Of a stretch of 64,000 nucleotides of DNA, positions 3,533-8,772 are shown in pieces; the first letter of the stretch is position 1; every line of letters begins with the position of its first letter. A program made the position numbers and the translations under genes. Below the pieces are notes generated by a model that worked only from the letters and a program-made list of their open reading frames with translations, did not search any database and was not told the origin of the DNA. Source of the DNA: Phycicoccus sonneratiae (GTDB lineage: Bacteria > Actinomycetota > Actinomycetes > Actinomycetales > Dermatophilaceae); the NCBI RefSeq assembly GCF_016887965.1, contig NZ_JAFDVD010000012.1:124001-188000 (forward strand). Reading direction: 5' to 3'.

Positions 3533-4464
3533 CCTCCGGATCCTAGGAGGTGGTGCCGACGTCCCCACGTCCAGCCCGCGCCGGCGACGACGAGGTCGGC
3601 CACGATCGCGAGGAACCGGGCGACGACGACGACCGCCGTCGCGGCCGAGACGGGCATGAAGGTGACGAGCAGGAGGGCCAGGACGCCGTCGCGCACCCCC
3701 ACGCCGGCCGGCACGAGCACGGACAGCTGCCCGACCGCCGACGCGAGCGCGAACCCGCAGACCACGCCGACGACGAGGTCGGCCGCGGTGACGTCGGTGG
3801 CGAGCGACAGGACGAGCACCGCGACCCCGATGCCGGCGAGGACCCACGCCGCCGCGAACCACAGGCAGGTGAGGACGATCGCCCGTCCGGACAGCGCGTG
3901 CTCGAGGGGCTCGCGGCGCAGGATGCGCAGCCCGAGCGCGAGCAGGGCGTTGAGCAGCCGCGGCCAGAGGAGCAGACCGCCGAGCAGGGCCGCCGCGACG
4001 AGCACCCACAGCGTGACCGGCGAGCCGCCGCGGGCCAGCAGCCGGGGCAGCGCGACGACGCCGAGCAGGCTGCCGACGAGGATGGCCAGGAGGATCGACA
4101 GCAGGCCGGTGACCGCCATCCGGCGCCGCGGCACCTCGAGCCGGGCCCCCATCTCGGCCTGGGCGAGGACGGTCCACACCGACCCGGGGACGTACTTGCC
4201 GAGCTGGCCGACGAAGAAGACGCTGGCCGCCGGTGCCATCGGCAGCCGGGTGCCGAGGTCGGCGAGCAGCACCCGCCAGCCGACGAGCGTGGCGACAGGT
4301 GCCGCCGTCGTGAGGACGAGCGCGGCGAGCACGGCCGGCCAGCTCATCCGGCCGAGCTCGCGCGAGACCTCGTCCCAGTTGCGCGCCAGGGCCCAGACGA
4401 CGGCGACGAGCACGAGCGCGAGCAACCCGTAGCGCACGACGACGAGGATGCGGGAGCGGGTCAT
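3529..4464 (-). CDS. Lysylphosphatidylglycerol synthetase/UPF0104 family membrane protein
   Basis: 311 aa with about eight predicted transmembrane helices. The conserved FFVGQLGKYVPGSVW segment (around residue 88) and VLVPAGVGVRDGVLALL (around 250) are hallmarks of the UPF0104/AglD flippase-like fold, which lacks the soluble aminoacyl-transfer domain of MprF. Such proteins often accompany glycosyltransferases and may flip or gate polyprenyl-linked sugars. The start at 4464 follows the upstream stop by 13 nt. The stop overlaps the methyltransferase start by 4 nt. Confidence 0.8.
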   Translation of the reverse strand: MTRSRILVVVRYGLLALVLVAVVWALARNWDEVSRELGRMSWPAVLAALVLTTAAPVATLVGWRVLLADLGTRLPMAPAASVFFVGQLGKYVPGSVWTVLAQAEMGARLEVPRRRMAVTGLLSILLAILVGSLLGVVALPRLLARGGSPVTLWVLVAAALLGGLLLWPRLLNALLALGLRILRREPLEHALSGRAIVLTCLWFAAAWVLAGIGVAVLVLSLATDVTAADLVVGVVCGFALASAVGQLSVLVPAGVGVRDGVLALLLVTFMPVSAATAVVVVARFLAIVADLVVAGAGWTWGRRHHLLGSGG

Positions 4465-4477
4465 CGGTGAGCGTCCG

Positions 4478-6406
4478 TCACCGGCGGCGGAACGTGAGCC
4501 GGAGCACGGCGTAGGCCGGGGAGTCGGTGCCGCCGAACGCGATCCGCGCGTCGCGCATCCGCCCGAGGACGTCGCCGTCGACGTCGCCGACGAGGGTGAG
4601 CCCGAGGTCGTCGGCGCGGGCGAGGATGCCGCGCACGTCGGCGGGCCGCACCGCGAACTCGGGGTCGTCGTCGCCGATGGGCACGGTGAGGAGCAGCAGG
4701 CCTCCCGAGCGCAGGGCCCACGACGCCTGGCCGACGACGTGGTCGACGTCGGTGGCGGTGCAGCCGCCGGGGTGCAGGCGGGCGACGACGTCGAGGCTGG
4801 CGGTGTCGACGTCGAGGACCTCGATGGCGGCGCGCGGGCCGGTGAGCTCGAGCTCGACGGGGGCGAACCCGAGCGCCCGGGCCCAGCGCGAGAACGGGCT
4901 GGCACTGCCGGACTCGTCGACGACGACCGCCGCGCGGGCCCGGTCGTCGAGGACGCGGACGAGGGCGGCGACGGCCCCGAGCGCGGCCCACGCCGCGACG
5001 GGGTCCTTGGCGCGCGGCAGCCCGAGGGCACGGGCGACGTCGGTGGCCTCGACGGCCTCGGCGTCGACGGTGAGCAGGTCGGTGGCGCGCACGCCCTCGG
5101 GGAGGTCGGCGGGGCCGAGGTCGAGGACGGGTCCGCGCCGCGCGCGCCACACGGCCGCCATCGTGCGCACGCGGGCGACGGGGTTGAGCGGCACGACGGG
5201 GACGGGCGGGTCGTCGTCGAGCACCGCCGAGGGCTCGGCGGCGAGCGCCTCGATCGCGCCGACGTAGTTCGCCCAGGGTCCGGTGAGGTCGGGCTCGCGG
5301 ACCGCGGTGGCGAGCGCCCGGACCGTGGCGGGGTCGGTGAGGCGGCGCAGCGCCTCGACGAGCGCTGCCCTGTCGGACGGGGGCACGAGCAGCCCGTCGA
5401 CGCCGTCGCGCACCTGGACGGGGAAGGTGCCGACCGCCGTGGCCAGCACCGGCACGCCGTGGCGCCGGGCGAGGAGGACGTTCTGCGAGGCCGTCGCCGA
5501 CCGGTACGGCAGCGCGACGACGTCGTGACGGGCCATCAGTCCGGCGATGCGGTCGGCGGGCACGTAGCCGCCGTGCACCTCGACCCGGTCGCGCAGCCGC
5601 GGGTCGGCGGCGAGCTCGCGGACGCGGCGGCCGGCATCGCCCCACAGCTCGCCCGCGACGGTGAGGGTGGGACCCTCGACCTCGCGCAGCGCCTCGAGGA
5701 GCAGGTCGACGCCCTTGTAGTCGCGGACGATGCCGAGGCTGAGCAGGCGCACGGGGCCGTCGTGGTCGGGCCGCGGCTCCGGGTCCCCGCCGGGCAGGTG
5801 CGGGGGCAGGTCGACCTCGCGGACCCGGCGGGCGCCGAGGTCGGCGGCGACCCGCGCCTGCTCGTCGGAGTGGACGACGACGGCGTCGGCGCGGCGGAGA
5901 AGGGCGGCGACGAGCTGCCGGTCGCCGGGGTTGGTCTCGTGCGGGAGGACGTTGTGGGCGACGACGACCGCGCGCGGGCCCCGGCCTCCCCCACCGGCAC
6001 CCGCGGCCCGGAGCAGGGCGAGGTGGGCGGGCACGACGGCCGGGACGACGTGGACGAGCACGACGACGTCGACGTCGCGCAGCCGCCGGCCGGCGCGCAG
6101 CCAGGTGTCGGGGCGGGCCCACGACAGGACCCGCAGGGTGCGCGGGAACGGGTCGACGTCCGGGGCGCCGCCGGGGACGGCCTGCTCGCCCGGGTAGAGG
6201 AACGACGGGTAGAGGTGGCTCCACGACACGAGGGTGACGTCGTGGCCGGCGTCGGCGAGCTCGTGGGCGAGGGTCGTCGTGTGCGCCGCGACCCCTCCCT
6301 TGAACGGGTGCGTCGGGCCGACGAGTGCGACGCGCAGGGCGGCGCCCGATGCCGCGGAGGCGTCCTCGCCCGTCCCCCCGTCGACACCGGTCACGGTGTC
6401 AGACAC
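4478..6406 (-). CDS. GT4 family glycosyltransferase fused to a C-terminal methyltransferase-like domain
   Basis: 642 aa. Residues about 25-395 form a GT-B glycosyltransferase: VGPTHPFKGGVAAHT at the N-terminus, LSLGIVRDYKGVDLLLEAL at the start of the nucleotide-sugar half, and ALPYRSATASQNV near the donor site. Residues about 420-642 are a second domain with a Rossmann-type methyltransferase look (SWALRSGGLLLLTVPIGDDD, then a C-terminal strand pair), but no clear glycine-rich SAM loop is visible. The GTG start at 6406 overlaps the upstream stop by 8 nt (GTGTCTGA). Donor and acceptor sugars are unknown. Confidence 0.8.
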   Translation of the reverse strand: MSDTVTGVDGGTGEDASAASGAALRVALVGPTHPFKGGVAAHTTTLAHELADAGHDVTLVSWSHLYPSFLYPGEQAVPGGAPDVDPFPRTLRVLSWARPDTWLRAGRRLRDVDVVVLVHVVPAVVPAHLALLRAAGAGGGGRGPRAVVVAHNVLPHETNPGDRQLVAALLRRADAVVVHSDEQARVAADLGARRVREVDLPPHLPGGDPEPRPDHDGPVRLLSLGIVRDYKGVDLLLEALREVEGPTLTVAGELWGDAGRRVRELAADPRLRDRVEVHGGYVPADRIAGLMARHDVVALPYRSATASQNVLLARRHGVPVLATAVGTFPVQVRDGVDGLLVPPSDRAALVEALRRLTDPATVRALATAVREPDLTGPWANYVGAIEALAAEPSAVLDDDPPVPVVPLNPVARVRTMAAVWRARRGPVLDLGPADLPEGVRATDLLTVDAEAVEATDVARALGLPRAKDPVAAWAALGAVAALVRVLDDRARAAVVVDESGSASPFSRWARALGFAPVELELTGPRAAIEVLDVDTASLDVVARLHPGGCTATDVDHVVGQASWALRSGGLLLLTVPIGDDDPEFAVRPADVRGILARADDLGLTLVGDVDGDVLGRMRDARIAFGGTDSPAYAVLRLTFRRR

Positions 6407-7487
6407 CGTCCCTGGACCGGACGACGAGGTCGGACAGGAGGGCCAGCGACCCGATCATGATGCCGCTGACGACGAGGAGGACGGTGCTCGCCGGGAAGTA
6501 GAACGGGTGGCGCACCATGTCGACGACGGCCTTGACGACCCCGATGACGACGAGCCAGAGCGCCGGCGGCATGAGCACCTTGAGCGGGTCGAAGTACATG
6601 ACCATCCGCAGCACCTGGAGGATGTAGCGGTAGGCGTCGTTGACGAAGTGGAACTTGCTGACCCCGGCGCGCTTGGCGTAGCTCGTCTCGACGTACCTGA
6701 TGTCGTGCTGGTTCGACAGGAACGCGATGGTGATCGTCGTGACGCACGAGAAGCCGGCCGGCAGCAGCCGGAGGTAGGGCAGCGAGACGTCGCGGCGGAA
6801 CGCGCGCAGGCCCGAGTTGAGGTCGGGGATGCGGGTCTTGGTCAGCCACTCGGCGATCTTGCGGATGAGCCACTTGGCCGGCACCCGGGCCCACTTGTGC
6901 GTGCCCTCCTCGGTGGTGCGGGCGCCGACGACCTGGTCGTACGTGGGGTCGTCGCGCAGGATCCGGACGAGGTCGGGGATCTTCTCGTTCTCGTAGGTCA
7001 TGTCGGCGTCGGTCCAGACGACGATCTCGCCGCGGGCCTGCTGGGTGCCGATGCGCCGGGCGGTGCCGGAGCCGCCGTTGCGGCGGAAGGGCAGCACGCG
7101 CAGGTGGGGGTAGCGCTGCTGGGCGGAGCGCAGGACCTCGAGGGTGTCGTCGGTGCTCGCGTCGTCGATGCAGAGGATCTCGTAGGTGAAGTCCGCGGCC
7201 TCGAGGACGCGGGAGCAGCGGTCGAGCTCCTGGAGGACGTGCGCGCCCTCGTTGTAGCAGGGCAGGACGAGCGTGACGTAGGGGGCGGGCCCGGGGCCGT
7301 CCGGGCCGTCCTCGATGACGTGGCCGCCGGCCGCGCGGGGGCGCACGGTGCCCGCGGTGCCCGCGGTGGACGGGTCGGTGCTGCGCCCGGCCAGCTCGCC
7401 GGTGCGGACGTCGATCTGCTCGGTGGGTGCCGCGTGGACGGCGTCGTGGTCGGCGTGGGCGGCCGCGGCCTCGGGGTGCTCGTTCAT
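6399..7487 (-). CDS. GT2 family glycosyltransferase, polyprenyl-phosphate sugar synthase type
   Basis: 362 aa. A poorly conserved 70-residue lead is followed by the GT2 domain: VTLVLPCYNEGAHVL, the DD motif in CIDDASTDDT, and TDADMTYENEKI around the metal-binding acid. Two hydrophobic segments near residues 310-355 would anchor it in the membrane, as in GtrB/dolichol-phosphate-mannose synthase relatives that charge a polyprenyl phosphate. It is the first gene of the leftward operon running to 1788. A TAGGCT -10 box (7496-7501) sits 8 nt from the ATG, pointing to a leaderless transcript. Confidence 0.85.
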   Translation of the reverse strand: MNEHPEAAAAHADHDAVHAAPTEQIDVRTGELAGRSTDPSTAGTAGTVRPRAAGGHVIEDGPDGPGPAPYVTLVLPCYNEGAHVLQELDRCSRVLEAADFTYEILCIDDASTDDTLEVLRSAQQRYPHLRVLPFRRNGGSGTARRIGTQQARGEIVVWTDADMTYENEKIPDLVRILRDDPTYDQVVGARTTEEGTHKWARVPAKWLIRKIAEWLTKTRIPDLNSGLRAFRRDVSLPYLRLLPAGFSCVTTITIAFLSNQHDIRYVETSYAKRAGVSKFHFVNDAYRYILQVLRMVMYFDPLKVLMPPALWLVVIGVVKAVVDMVRHPFYFPASTVLLVVSGIMIGSLALLSDLVVRSRDGV

Positions 7488-7495
7488 CGCCCGCG

Positions 7496-7501
7496 AGCCT
7501 A
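7496..7501 (-). promoter_or_regulatory. Leaderless -10 box TAGGCT for the leftward GT2-alkA operon
   Basis: TAGGCT on the minus strand ends 8 nt before the ATG at 7487, so transcription should begin at or beside the start codon. The palindrome array at 7584-7684 lies 83-188 bp upstream of this box. Confidence 0.6.
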
Positions 7502-7583
7502 CCGGCGGGGCGACGGGTCACCGCACCGGCGGGCGCCCAGCACCCGGAGGGACACCGTGTGCCTCCAGCCCTCCATGCCGCTC

Positions 7584-7684
7584 GCAAGGGATCCCGTGCG
7601 CCCCGCAAGGGATCCCTTGCCAAGCGCAAGGGTTCCCTGACGTCCGGCAAGGGATCCCTTGCGCTCGGCAAGGATCTCCGGAGC
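7584..7684. repeat. Five-unit 21-bp-period palindromic repeat array
   Basis: Units begin at 7584, 7605, 7626, 7647 and 7668, an exact 21-bp period. Units 2 (7605-7620) and 4 (7647-7662) are the perfect 16-bp palindrome GCAAGGGATCCCTTGC. Unit 1 has one change, unit 3 has several, and unit 5 is degenerate. The 5-bp spacers are not conserved. Two helical turns separate neighbouring palindromes, so they would all lie on one face of the DNA. The array is intergenic, upstream of the GT2-alkA operon and just beyond the end of the topoisomerase gene. It is not CRISPR-like because the spacers are too short. Confidence 0.85.
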
Positions 7685-7767
7685 GCACACCGTCACCTCG
7701 GCCTCGCCTGGGTCCTCTCGGCCTCACCCCCGCGCGCGCCACGTCGGGCCGCTCGCCCCGCGCCGAC

Positions 7768-8772
7768 TCACGCCCCGTCGATGAGCCGCGCCACCGCCTT
7801 CTCGATGGCCGCCTGCCGCTTGGCGTCCTCCCGGTACCGCTTCGCCAGCGTGCCGGCGATCGTCACGCCGTCCTCGTACTGGTCGATGACCCGCGGGTCG
7901 ATGTAGGACTTGCGCGCGATCGTCGGGGTGTTGCCGAGGTAGGCCGACACCTCCTCGACCGCCGCCTTGACCGCCCGCTTCCGCGAGGCGACCGTGTCAC
8001 CCTTCTCCGGCGACTCGGCGAGCGCCACCGCCGCCAGCACCGTCGCGTGCCACGTCCGGAAGTCCTTGGCCGTGAGGTCCTCGGCGACCATCTGCGAGAT
8101 GTACTCGTTGACCGCCGACGCCTGCAGGTCGGCCCACTTCGCCTCGCCGCGGTAGGCGAGCAGCCGTTTCGACCCACCCCGCCGGCGCCGCATGTAGTTC
8201 AGCGAGTCGATGACCTGCGGATCGCTCACCGAGATCGAGTGCTCGATGCCGGACTTGCCGACGAAGGAGAAGACGAGGTCGGTGCCCTGCCGCCGGACGT
8301 GCCGCCGCTCGAGCGTCGTCAGCCCGAACGACCCGTTGGCGTCGGTGTAGGCGTCCGACCCGATCCGGAAGTACCCGAGGTCGAGCAGCCGGGTGGCCGT
8401 CGCCGCCGCGCGGGCCAGCGGCATCCCCTCCCCCGCGAGGTCCTCGATGATGCGCTCGCGCGCCTTGGCCAGCCGGGTGCCGGCGGCCTTGACGCGGTCG
8501 AACTTCAGCTCGTCGCGGGCGGTGCGCCAGTCCGGGTGGTAGAGGTACTGGCGCCGGCCCGCGGCATCGGTGCCGATGGCCTGGATGTGACCGTTGGGGT
8601 GTGGGCAGATCCACACGTCCTGCCACGCGGGCGGGATGGCGAGCGAGCGGATCCGCTCGACCTCCTCCTTCGGGAGCGCGTCCCCCCCGGCGTCGCGGTA
8701 CGAGAAACCCTTCCCGGCCCGCTTCCGCGTCCACCCCGCCGACCGCGGGGACACCCGCCGCAACCTCGCCAT
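7768..8772 (-). CDS. DNA topoisomerase IB (eukaryotic/poxvirus type)
   Basis: 334 aa, a usual length for bacterial TopIB. It relaxes supercoils through a 3'-phosphotyrosyl intermediate. The catalytic tyrosine is in RKSYIDPRVI near the C-terminus, the catalytic histidine/arginine region is KDFRTWHATVLAAV, and the N-terminal domain has IPPAWQDVWICPHPNGHIQA. All landmarks of the family are present. A minus-strand TAGGGT (8779-8784) lies 6 nt before the ATG, again suggesting a leaderless mRNA. It is transcribed alone. Confidence 0.9.
   Translation of the reverse strand: MARLRRVSPRSAGWTRKRAGKGFSYRDAGGDALPKEEVERIRSLAIPPAWQDVWICPHPNGHIQAIGTDAAGRRQYLYHPDWRTARDELKFDRVKAAGTRLAKARERIIEDLAGEGMPLARAAATATRLLDLGYFRIGSDAYTDANGSFGLTTLERRHVRRQGTDLVFSFVGKSGIEHSISVSDPQVIDSLNYMRRRRGGSKRLLAYRGEAKWADLQASAVNEYISQMVAEDLTAKDFRTWHATVLAAVALAESPEKGDTVASRKRAVKAAVEEVSAYLGNTPTIARKSYIDPRVIDQYEDGVTIAGTLAKRYREDAKRQAAIEKAVARLIDGA

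Follow-up and report, generated by a model that had tools for sequence, protein, structure and literature searches.

What is the array of near-palindromes that stands between a glycosyltransferase gene and a topoisomerase gene in Phycicoccus sonneratiae, and how did it come to be there? It was found in a window of 64,000 nucleotides, the whole stretch of DNA analyzed, from the 4.11-Mb genome of this species (G000 below; coordinates without a prefix are positions in the window). A preliminary description had read the array as the binding site of a cooperative repressor or a chromosome-organising protein ahead of a polysaccharide/alkA operon. The analyses described here lead us to regard the array as probably belonging to a family of intergenic elements, restricted to one lineage and similar to MITEs and BIMEs, whose units a putative trans-acting protein would recognise and keep uniform within each species.

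Results

The window array and its neighbours

The array spans positions 7584–7662 and consists of four 16-bp near-palindromes at a step of exactly 21 bp. Two of them are perfect, as the preliminary description had stated, namely units 2 (7605–7620) and 4 (7647–7662), both reading GCAAGGGATCCCTTGC; unit 1 (GCAAGGGATCCCGTGC, 7584–7599) has one mismatch to this 16-mer and unit 3 (GCAAGGGTTCCCTGAC, 7626–7641) has three. Five units had been counted originally, and the 21-bp step held for four; the supposed fifth is the first 16 bases of an inverted terminal piece, the right arm, on the minus strand at 7668–7700. Its inverted counterpart, the left arm (GGAGGGACACCGTGTGCCTCCAGCCCTCCATGC), lies on the plus strand at 7546–7578. 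The segment GCAAGGATCTCCGGAG at 7668–7683 corresponds in inverted orientation to CTCCAGCCCTCCATGC at 7563–7578, and the likeness of the arms runs on outwards to about 7546 and 7700, which makes their outer limits approximate. With up to three mismatches allowed, the 16-mer had four matches in the window, whereas 100 shuffled sequences averaged 0.17 matches and never exceeded 1, and TRF assigned the array a period of 21 with a score of 98.

The element lies between two genes on the minus strand, both outside it. Downstream is a glycosyltransferase family 2 gene (6399–7487), whose ATG at 7487 is 97 bp from the beginning of the array; upstream is a DNA topoisomerase IB gene (7768–8772, with the start at 8754 by the coding-score call), whose end at 7768 precedes the array. 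Operator arrays of cooperative repressors consist of palindromes in helical phase, a property that the window array shares. The distance of 97 bp to the first gene of the polysaccharide/alkA operon likewise favors the repressor operator originally proposed, and the array was correctly placed upstream of that operon; it is the operator role that found no support. A consensus scan detected no sigma-70-like promoter in 7300–8000, a result that says little for an actinobacterium.

The window site in relatives

The same glycosyltransferase and topoisomerase genes are present without an array in six of the seven aligned relatives (G010, G008, G003, G005, G011 and G001); in the seventh, G009, the alignment stops after the first gene. 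Hence, the array is not conserved upstream of the orthologous operons. The gap between the two genes measures about 57 bp in G010 vs. 281 bp in G000; it is also short in G003, G005 and G001, and in G008 and G011 it is longer and filled with unrelated sequence. This seven-relative alignment places the DNA present in G000 and missing from the shortest gaps at 7519–7745, an approximate extent because its exact ends are blurred by the diverged flanks and by the absence of the end motif CTGAGAG from the window copy.

A motif-blind scan for three palindromes stepped by 21 bp was applied to the window site and five other array sites, and 55 of 56 regions could be scored (L152 was too short; L175 and L156 end at contig ends and may miss the array position). 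Known arrays scored 53–71 and shuffles up to 49, and the nine window-site regions, from nine genomes, scored 46–52. Two regions alone fell within the range of the known arrays: L146 (56), which is a simple 7-base repeat, and L169 (59), which is coding DNA. The L146 repeat, AGCCAGG at about 222–280 in G011, stands at the orthologous position of the L018 array. The L021 site was found only in G010. As a separate observation, the window glycosyltransferase segment has two 92% matches in G001, located on two contigs (L188; G001:C19:42913). Since the array is missing from relatives that keep both genes, it can hardly serve the glycosyltransferase operon as an operator.

Eleven elements in the genome

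When the 16-mer was searched with up to two mismatches, 38 places in the G000 genome were retrieved, and all 38 fell inside 11 dispersed, intergenic elements of the form arm–array–arm, their units stepped by 21 bp; reversing the pattern as a control gave 0 matches. The preliminary description had held that two things would speak against its reading, absence of the array from close relatives and scatter of the repeat through the genome in non-promoter positions, and this is largely what we observed. The 10-mer GCAAGGGATC occurs exactly at 34 places, 33 of them within the 11 arrays; the remaining one (C30:118357) belongs to a lone degenerate unit. The G000 arrays contain three to seven units each (42 units were counted in this genome and 36 in G010), and inverted arms with the consensus TGTGTGCTCCnGnnCTCCnTGC, some of them degenerate, are found at both ends in 11 of 11. 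TCC-n-TGC was invariant in the 28 arms of G000 and G002, and a search with an arm-only pattern performed no better than its reversed control. Adjoining the array in L027 (4104–4215) is a tandem repeat of about 25 bp, CCTCGGCCCGAGCGCGGCCCGTCAC.

The 21-bp step is strict. In five species of the genus, 85 steps of 16–26 bp separate consecutive cores matched by regex, and 81 of them are exactly 21, a count that omits the second-type units and the shifted stretches of G003. The recurrence of this step and of a GG-N4-CC core in the five species supports the original proposal that the constraint is on the palindromes and not on a reading frame. A coding heptapeptide repeat (21 bp being seven codons) was rejected, given that gene prediction places the arrays in intergenic DNA and that the frame shifts within the arrays of relatives. 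The 5-bp spacers, described as unconserved, do vary from array to array, but those of a single array are often copies of one another, as with GACCG, which was found seven times in L020.

Copying of units and spacers within arrays is what a neutral minisatellite would display, that is, tandem duplication of a chance palindrome in 21-bp steps with no factor involved; a period of 21 bp also preserves any reading frame and would be harmless under read-through. We nevertheless consider a minisatellite of this kind improbable, as a single unit type is combined with a single type of inverted arm at 11 places, and the core and arms are common to species whose outer letters differ.

Gene context and the possibility of an RNA-level element

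By coding-score gene calls in four species, all 27 arrays examined are intergenic (11 from G000, three from G002, nine from G010 and four of the 15 fetched from G003). The gaps in which they lie are co-directional in 15 cases, convergent in eight and divergent in three, and one is cut by a contig end, while the remaining gaps of these loci, where 60 bp or longer, comprise 36 co-directional, seven convergent and 16 divergent ones; these are raw counts in which orthologous arrays figure more than once. A gene start is present on at least one side of 18 of the 26 classed arrays, and eight of the 26, those between convergent genes, have none on either side. Pfam searches with 30 neighbouring proteins (22 beside G000 arrays, six beside G010 arrays and two beside G003 arrays) revealed no common theme, and three of the 30 had no match; among the neighbours are GMP synthase, alanine racemase, G6PD, topoisomerase IB, a DUF3516 helicase and glycosyltransferases. 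Unlike repressor operator arrays, the element is tied to no gene class, and eight of 26 classed arrays lack a flanking gene start. With ten more arrays beside unrelated genes, four of the 11 G000 arrays between convergent genes, and the window site devoid of an array in relatives having the same gene pair, an operator dedicated to the glycosyltransferase/alkA operon is very improbable, and we rejected it as a candidate.

The eight convergent gaps, set beside only three divergent ones, would suit an element acting at the RNA level, such as a bidirectional terminator or an mRNA stabiliser in which the transcribed arms and units would pair into a long hairpin where genes end. In agreement with this idea, 7540–7705 folds as one long hairpin, with z-scores of -8.0 on the plus strand and -8.35 on the minus strand. 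However, the stems are not kept in G010, where unit positions 2 and 4 show pairing of 0.11 and 0.22; the window spacers facing each other across the axis are, by eye, not complementary; no terminator-like site was detected in 7300–8000; and a search of 15 loci against Rfam at gathering scores gave no match, the window yielding only sub-threshold animal miRNA models. Tests of pairing and of unit perfection in G010 did not support selection for a strict palindrome or hairpin. Perfect palindromes account for 2 of 19 unique units in G000, 0 of 22 in G010 and 0 of 30 in G003 (G[GC]NWWN[GC]C core). The halves of the units are unequal, and the strongest departure from random half pairing, out of 24 positions tested, was at position 8 in G003 (P 0.0005). 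A function in RNA thus appears unlikely to us.

Occurrence in other genomes

Exact GCAAG-type pairs, the spelling of the window units, were found in two of 19 genomes, G000 and G002, and these two remained the only ones among 12 genomes of the genus when up to three mismatches were allowed. Among named genome contigs, the sole match to the GCAAG-type pattern was the MAG Micrococcales bacterium DE15.012, which was taken as G002. For a wider search, a profile (R1) covering the arm, the spacer and the unit was built from 47 sequences of G000, G002, G003 and G010, so that these four match by construction. Across 186 genomes of the family, R1 gave 39 matches in G000, 34 in G003, 22 in G010 and 15 in G002; outside the building set, there were 10 in G008 and, in another genus, 23 in G431 and 11 in G432. 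The element is accordingly present in five of the 12 genus members and in two genomes of another genus. In G000, all of the matches listed lie inside the 11 arrays. Seven of the 12 genus members gave no match at E 0.01, with filters that lose some weak matches, and 17 further genomes of the family had one match each, with best E-values of 0.001–0.01. At the level of the order, five of 395 other genomes had one weak match each, and the five sequences, inspected by eye, contained no array. An order-wide pattern of SGATCS repeated three times was uninformative: 125 of 396 genomes matched, and the matches inspected appear to be coding DNA or simple repeats. No match was obtained with the GCAAG-spelling pattern against viral contigs, with the window element against plasmids and phages, or with one G003 element against plasmids. 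Titles and abstract beginnings in the open-access literature, subscription journals being outside this scope, revealed no paper on such an element, and a literature search with unit strings returned one Enterococcus paper with a 12-base piece.

Shared sites and species-specific spelling

Across species, the arms, the core (GG-N4-CC in most) and the 21-bp step are constant, and the outer letters of the half-sites vary. The units of G000 and G002 are spelled GCAAGSGATCSCTTGC (GCAAG type); those of G010 have the outer letters GAC, GTC, GGG or AGG around MGGKATMCC; G003 has GSAAGG...CCTTSC together with a second, interleaved unit type; G008 has GGGAGG...CCTCCC; and G431 and G432 have GCAAGGAATCCCTTGC. 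The second near-palindromic unit, GCAACCAnnTGGTTGC-like, is interleaved in L255 (3943–4256) and L256 (3734–4008) of G003 and in L242 and L247 of G008, giving a two-unit mosaic.

Many of these differently spelled arrays occupy the same sites. Six of the nine G010 arrays share their site with a G000 array, at flank identities of 76–91%; five of these six pairs align on both sides and L024/L132 on the right side only. Flanks also align between L025 (G000) and L075 (G002), between L017 (G000) and L252 (G003), and between six of the seven fetched G008 loci and G003 loci. Sharing across genera was observed at two loci, L130 (G010)/L226 (G431) and the L022 site. The latter carries arrays in six species of two genera (G000, G010, G003, G008, G431 and G432), each in the spelling of its species or genus, and the right-hand flank CTGTGGATGACG is common to G000, G003, G008 and G010, at about 28–47 bp from the arm in G000, G003 and G008 and about 85–90 bp in G010. 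The common flank sequence suggests that L022 represents one old insertion. Just beyond the array end in L225 of G431 (4090–4145) is a seven-base tandem repeat, GAGCACC/AAGCACC. Another dispersed intergenic repeat, GCCGTGCCGACCCGACCTCGCC- or GGGTCGGCCGG-like, was seen beside or inside L250 (3900–4010), L243 (4200–4400), L245 (3730–3990) and L021 (4176–4290).

A two-gene tree placed G000 and G010 as sisters (98/97) and G003 and G008 as sisters (100/100), the remainder being poorly resolved. For the six G000/G010 site pairs, the 7-mer overlap was 0.016–0.118, which falls inside the span obtained for unrelated arrays from these two genomes (0.014–0.127) and well short of the within-species means of 0.234–0.400; three site pairs lay slightly above and three below their own cross mean. 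Orthologous arrays of G003 and G008 overlapped by 0.078–0.317 and exceeded the cross mean in five of six cases (0.176–0.343 within each species; array limits approximate), which indicates that spelling shifted in this pair without erasing the common origin. An alignment of L247 with L251 displays GGGAGG vs. GGAAGG in the same frame.

One G010 locus, L132, has a GCAAG-type relic (profile match, E 7.3e-5) beside an array of the new type. The shared sites may also have arisen by homing, that is, independent insertion into the same gaps as an alternative to inheritance, and old and new arrays side by side in L132 favor it; such a relic would equally result from an insertion beside an older copy. 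When the G010 and G008 loci were searched by regex for more GCAAG relics, none was retrieved, and the L132 relic was missed too.

Ends of the element

In the 63 fetched loci, CTGAGAG/CTCTCAG occurs 25 times, in 19 loci, and 23 of these occurrences are near array ends; the two exceptions are in L130 at 3948 and in L242 at 1276. Most arrays are devoid of the motif. In G000 only L017 and L022 (2 of 11) keep it, at one end each, and the window copy has it at neither end. Both ends are kept in four elements: L252 (274 bp, flanked by GAAC/GAAC), L255 (314 bp, GATC/GATC) and L256 (275 bp, AATC/GATC) of G003, and L230 (247 bp, TTTC/AATT) of G431. A 4-bp flanking duplication is thus exact in two of the four, matches in three of four letters in the third and is absent from the fourth. 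The kept ends and flank repeats make a transposon-like origin with a 4-bp duplication likely, judging from sequence, for the best-preserved copies, and we do not extend it to the window copy.

Discussion

The element is best placed by comparison with known repeat families. REP, REPIN and BIME sequences are described as extragenic imperfect palindromes in mosaic or tandem clusters with species-specific spelling, presumed to be non-autonomous and linked to RAYTs, and located mostly between co-directional and convergent genes (PMC3733652, PMC3116915, PMC2817692). Our element is similar in being made of extragenic imperfect palindromes in mosaics and tandem clusters, in being presumably non-autonomous, in its species-specific spelling and in lying mostly in co-directional and convergent gaps; it differs in having about 10 loci as opposed to more than 100 copies, and in that no Y1 gene was found in the genus. 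Further differences are the strict head-to-tail 21-bp units within inverted arms, the CTGAGAG ends, and sites that are common to several species and, at two loci, to two genera. The RAYT-type domain Y1_Tnp (PF01797) was absent from 12 of 12 genus genomes, whereas control matches were obtained in 5 of 14 genomes, and by eye no GTAG or CGTC tag, which in REPs marks one end of the palindrome, was seen in the unit or arm consensus. With no Y1 transposase found in the genus, we do not file the element as REP: a true REP spread by a RAYT, to which the mosaic palindromic arrays, the approximately 10 dispersed loci and the species-specific spelling would otherwise point, is the least probable of the readings that we weighed.

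MITEs, or miniature inverted-repeat transposable elements, are short, non-coding and dispersed, with inverted ends and a flanking duplication. The present element resembles them in being short, non-coding and dispersed, in its terminal inverted repeats (11 of 11 G000 arrays) and in the 4-bp duplication of two of the four complete copies; it is unlike them in that the interior is a variable tandem array whose units are re-spelled by species at shared sites.

A different account would have a nucleoid or chromosome-organising protein bind the arrays as a platform, with array positions kept because they matter and a spelling that tracks the specificity of the protein. The strict 21-bp step, the clustering of sites, the approximately 10 dispersed loci per genome, the sites common to species and the genome-wide difference in spelling are all compatible with such a platform. 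The seven of 12 genus members without a profile match, the variation of sites between sister species, and the arms, CTGAGAG ends and flanking duplications, which resemble those of a mobile element, argue against it, and there is no candidate protein. We regard a platform of this kind as unlikely, if somewhat less so than a function in RNA.

We return to the MITE/BIME-like element as the preferred explanation. It would have entered many intergenic sites at an early date and then been largely inherited in place, with arrays lengthening locally through tandem duplication of the 21-bp unit. Most likely the units are what the putative trans-acting protein recognises, and this protein is probably what copies or homogenises the element. 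A homogenising protein would explain why each genome has one spelling and yet sister species differ at the same sites. Point mutation and selection at some 70–80 half-sites hardly seems an efficient route to a new genome-wide spelling; a single source that is copied, or fresh insertion beside existing copies, would fit better. What the sequences show directly is the element with its dispersal, its shared sites and its species-specific spelling, whereas the protein, what it does, how homogenisation proceeds, and inheritance as opposed to reinsertion at the shared sites are inferred. Several findings count against this explanation: no mobility or binding protein was identified; the 4-bp duplication is exact in two of the four complete elements only; CTGAGAG is kept in two of the 11 G000 arrays, at one end each, and is missing from the window copy; the 7-mer test on the G003/G008 pairs does not indicate replacement; L132 favors homing; and the regex search brought up no further relics.

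The usual accounts of bacterial interspersed repeats invoke RAYTs, MITEs derived from insertion sequences, or drift. We tentatively put forward, as a possibility short of an even chance, that each of these genomes holds about 10 ancient, position-conserved arrays whose recognition letters are rewritten together in each species by a putative non-RAYT binding or copying protein, which would maintain the arrays and possibly structure the chromosome. The family itself, with no Y1 gene found in the genus, sites common to species and recognition letters that differ genome-wide between sisters, offers a testable system for the joint change of specificity of a repeat family and its partner protein, in which the two sister pairs may serve as a handle on the putative protein.
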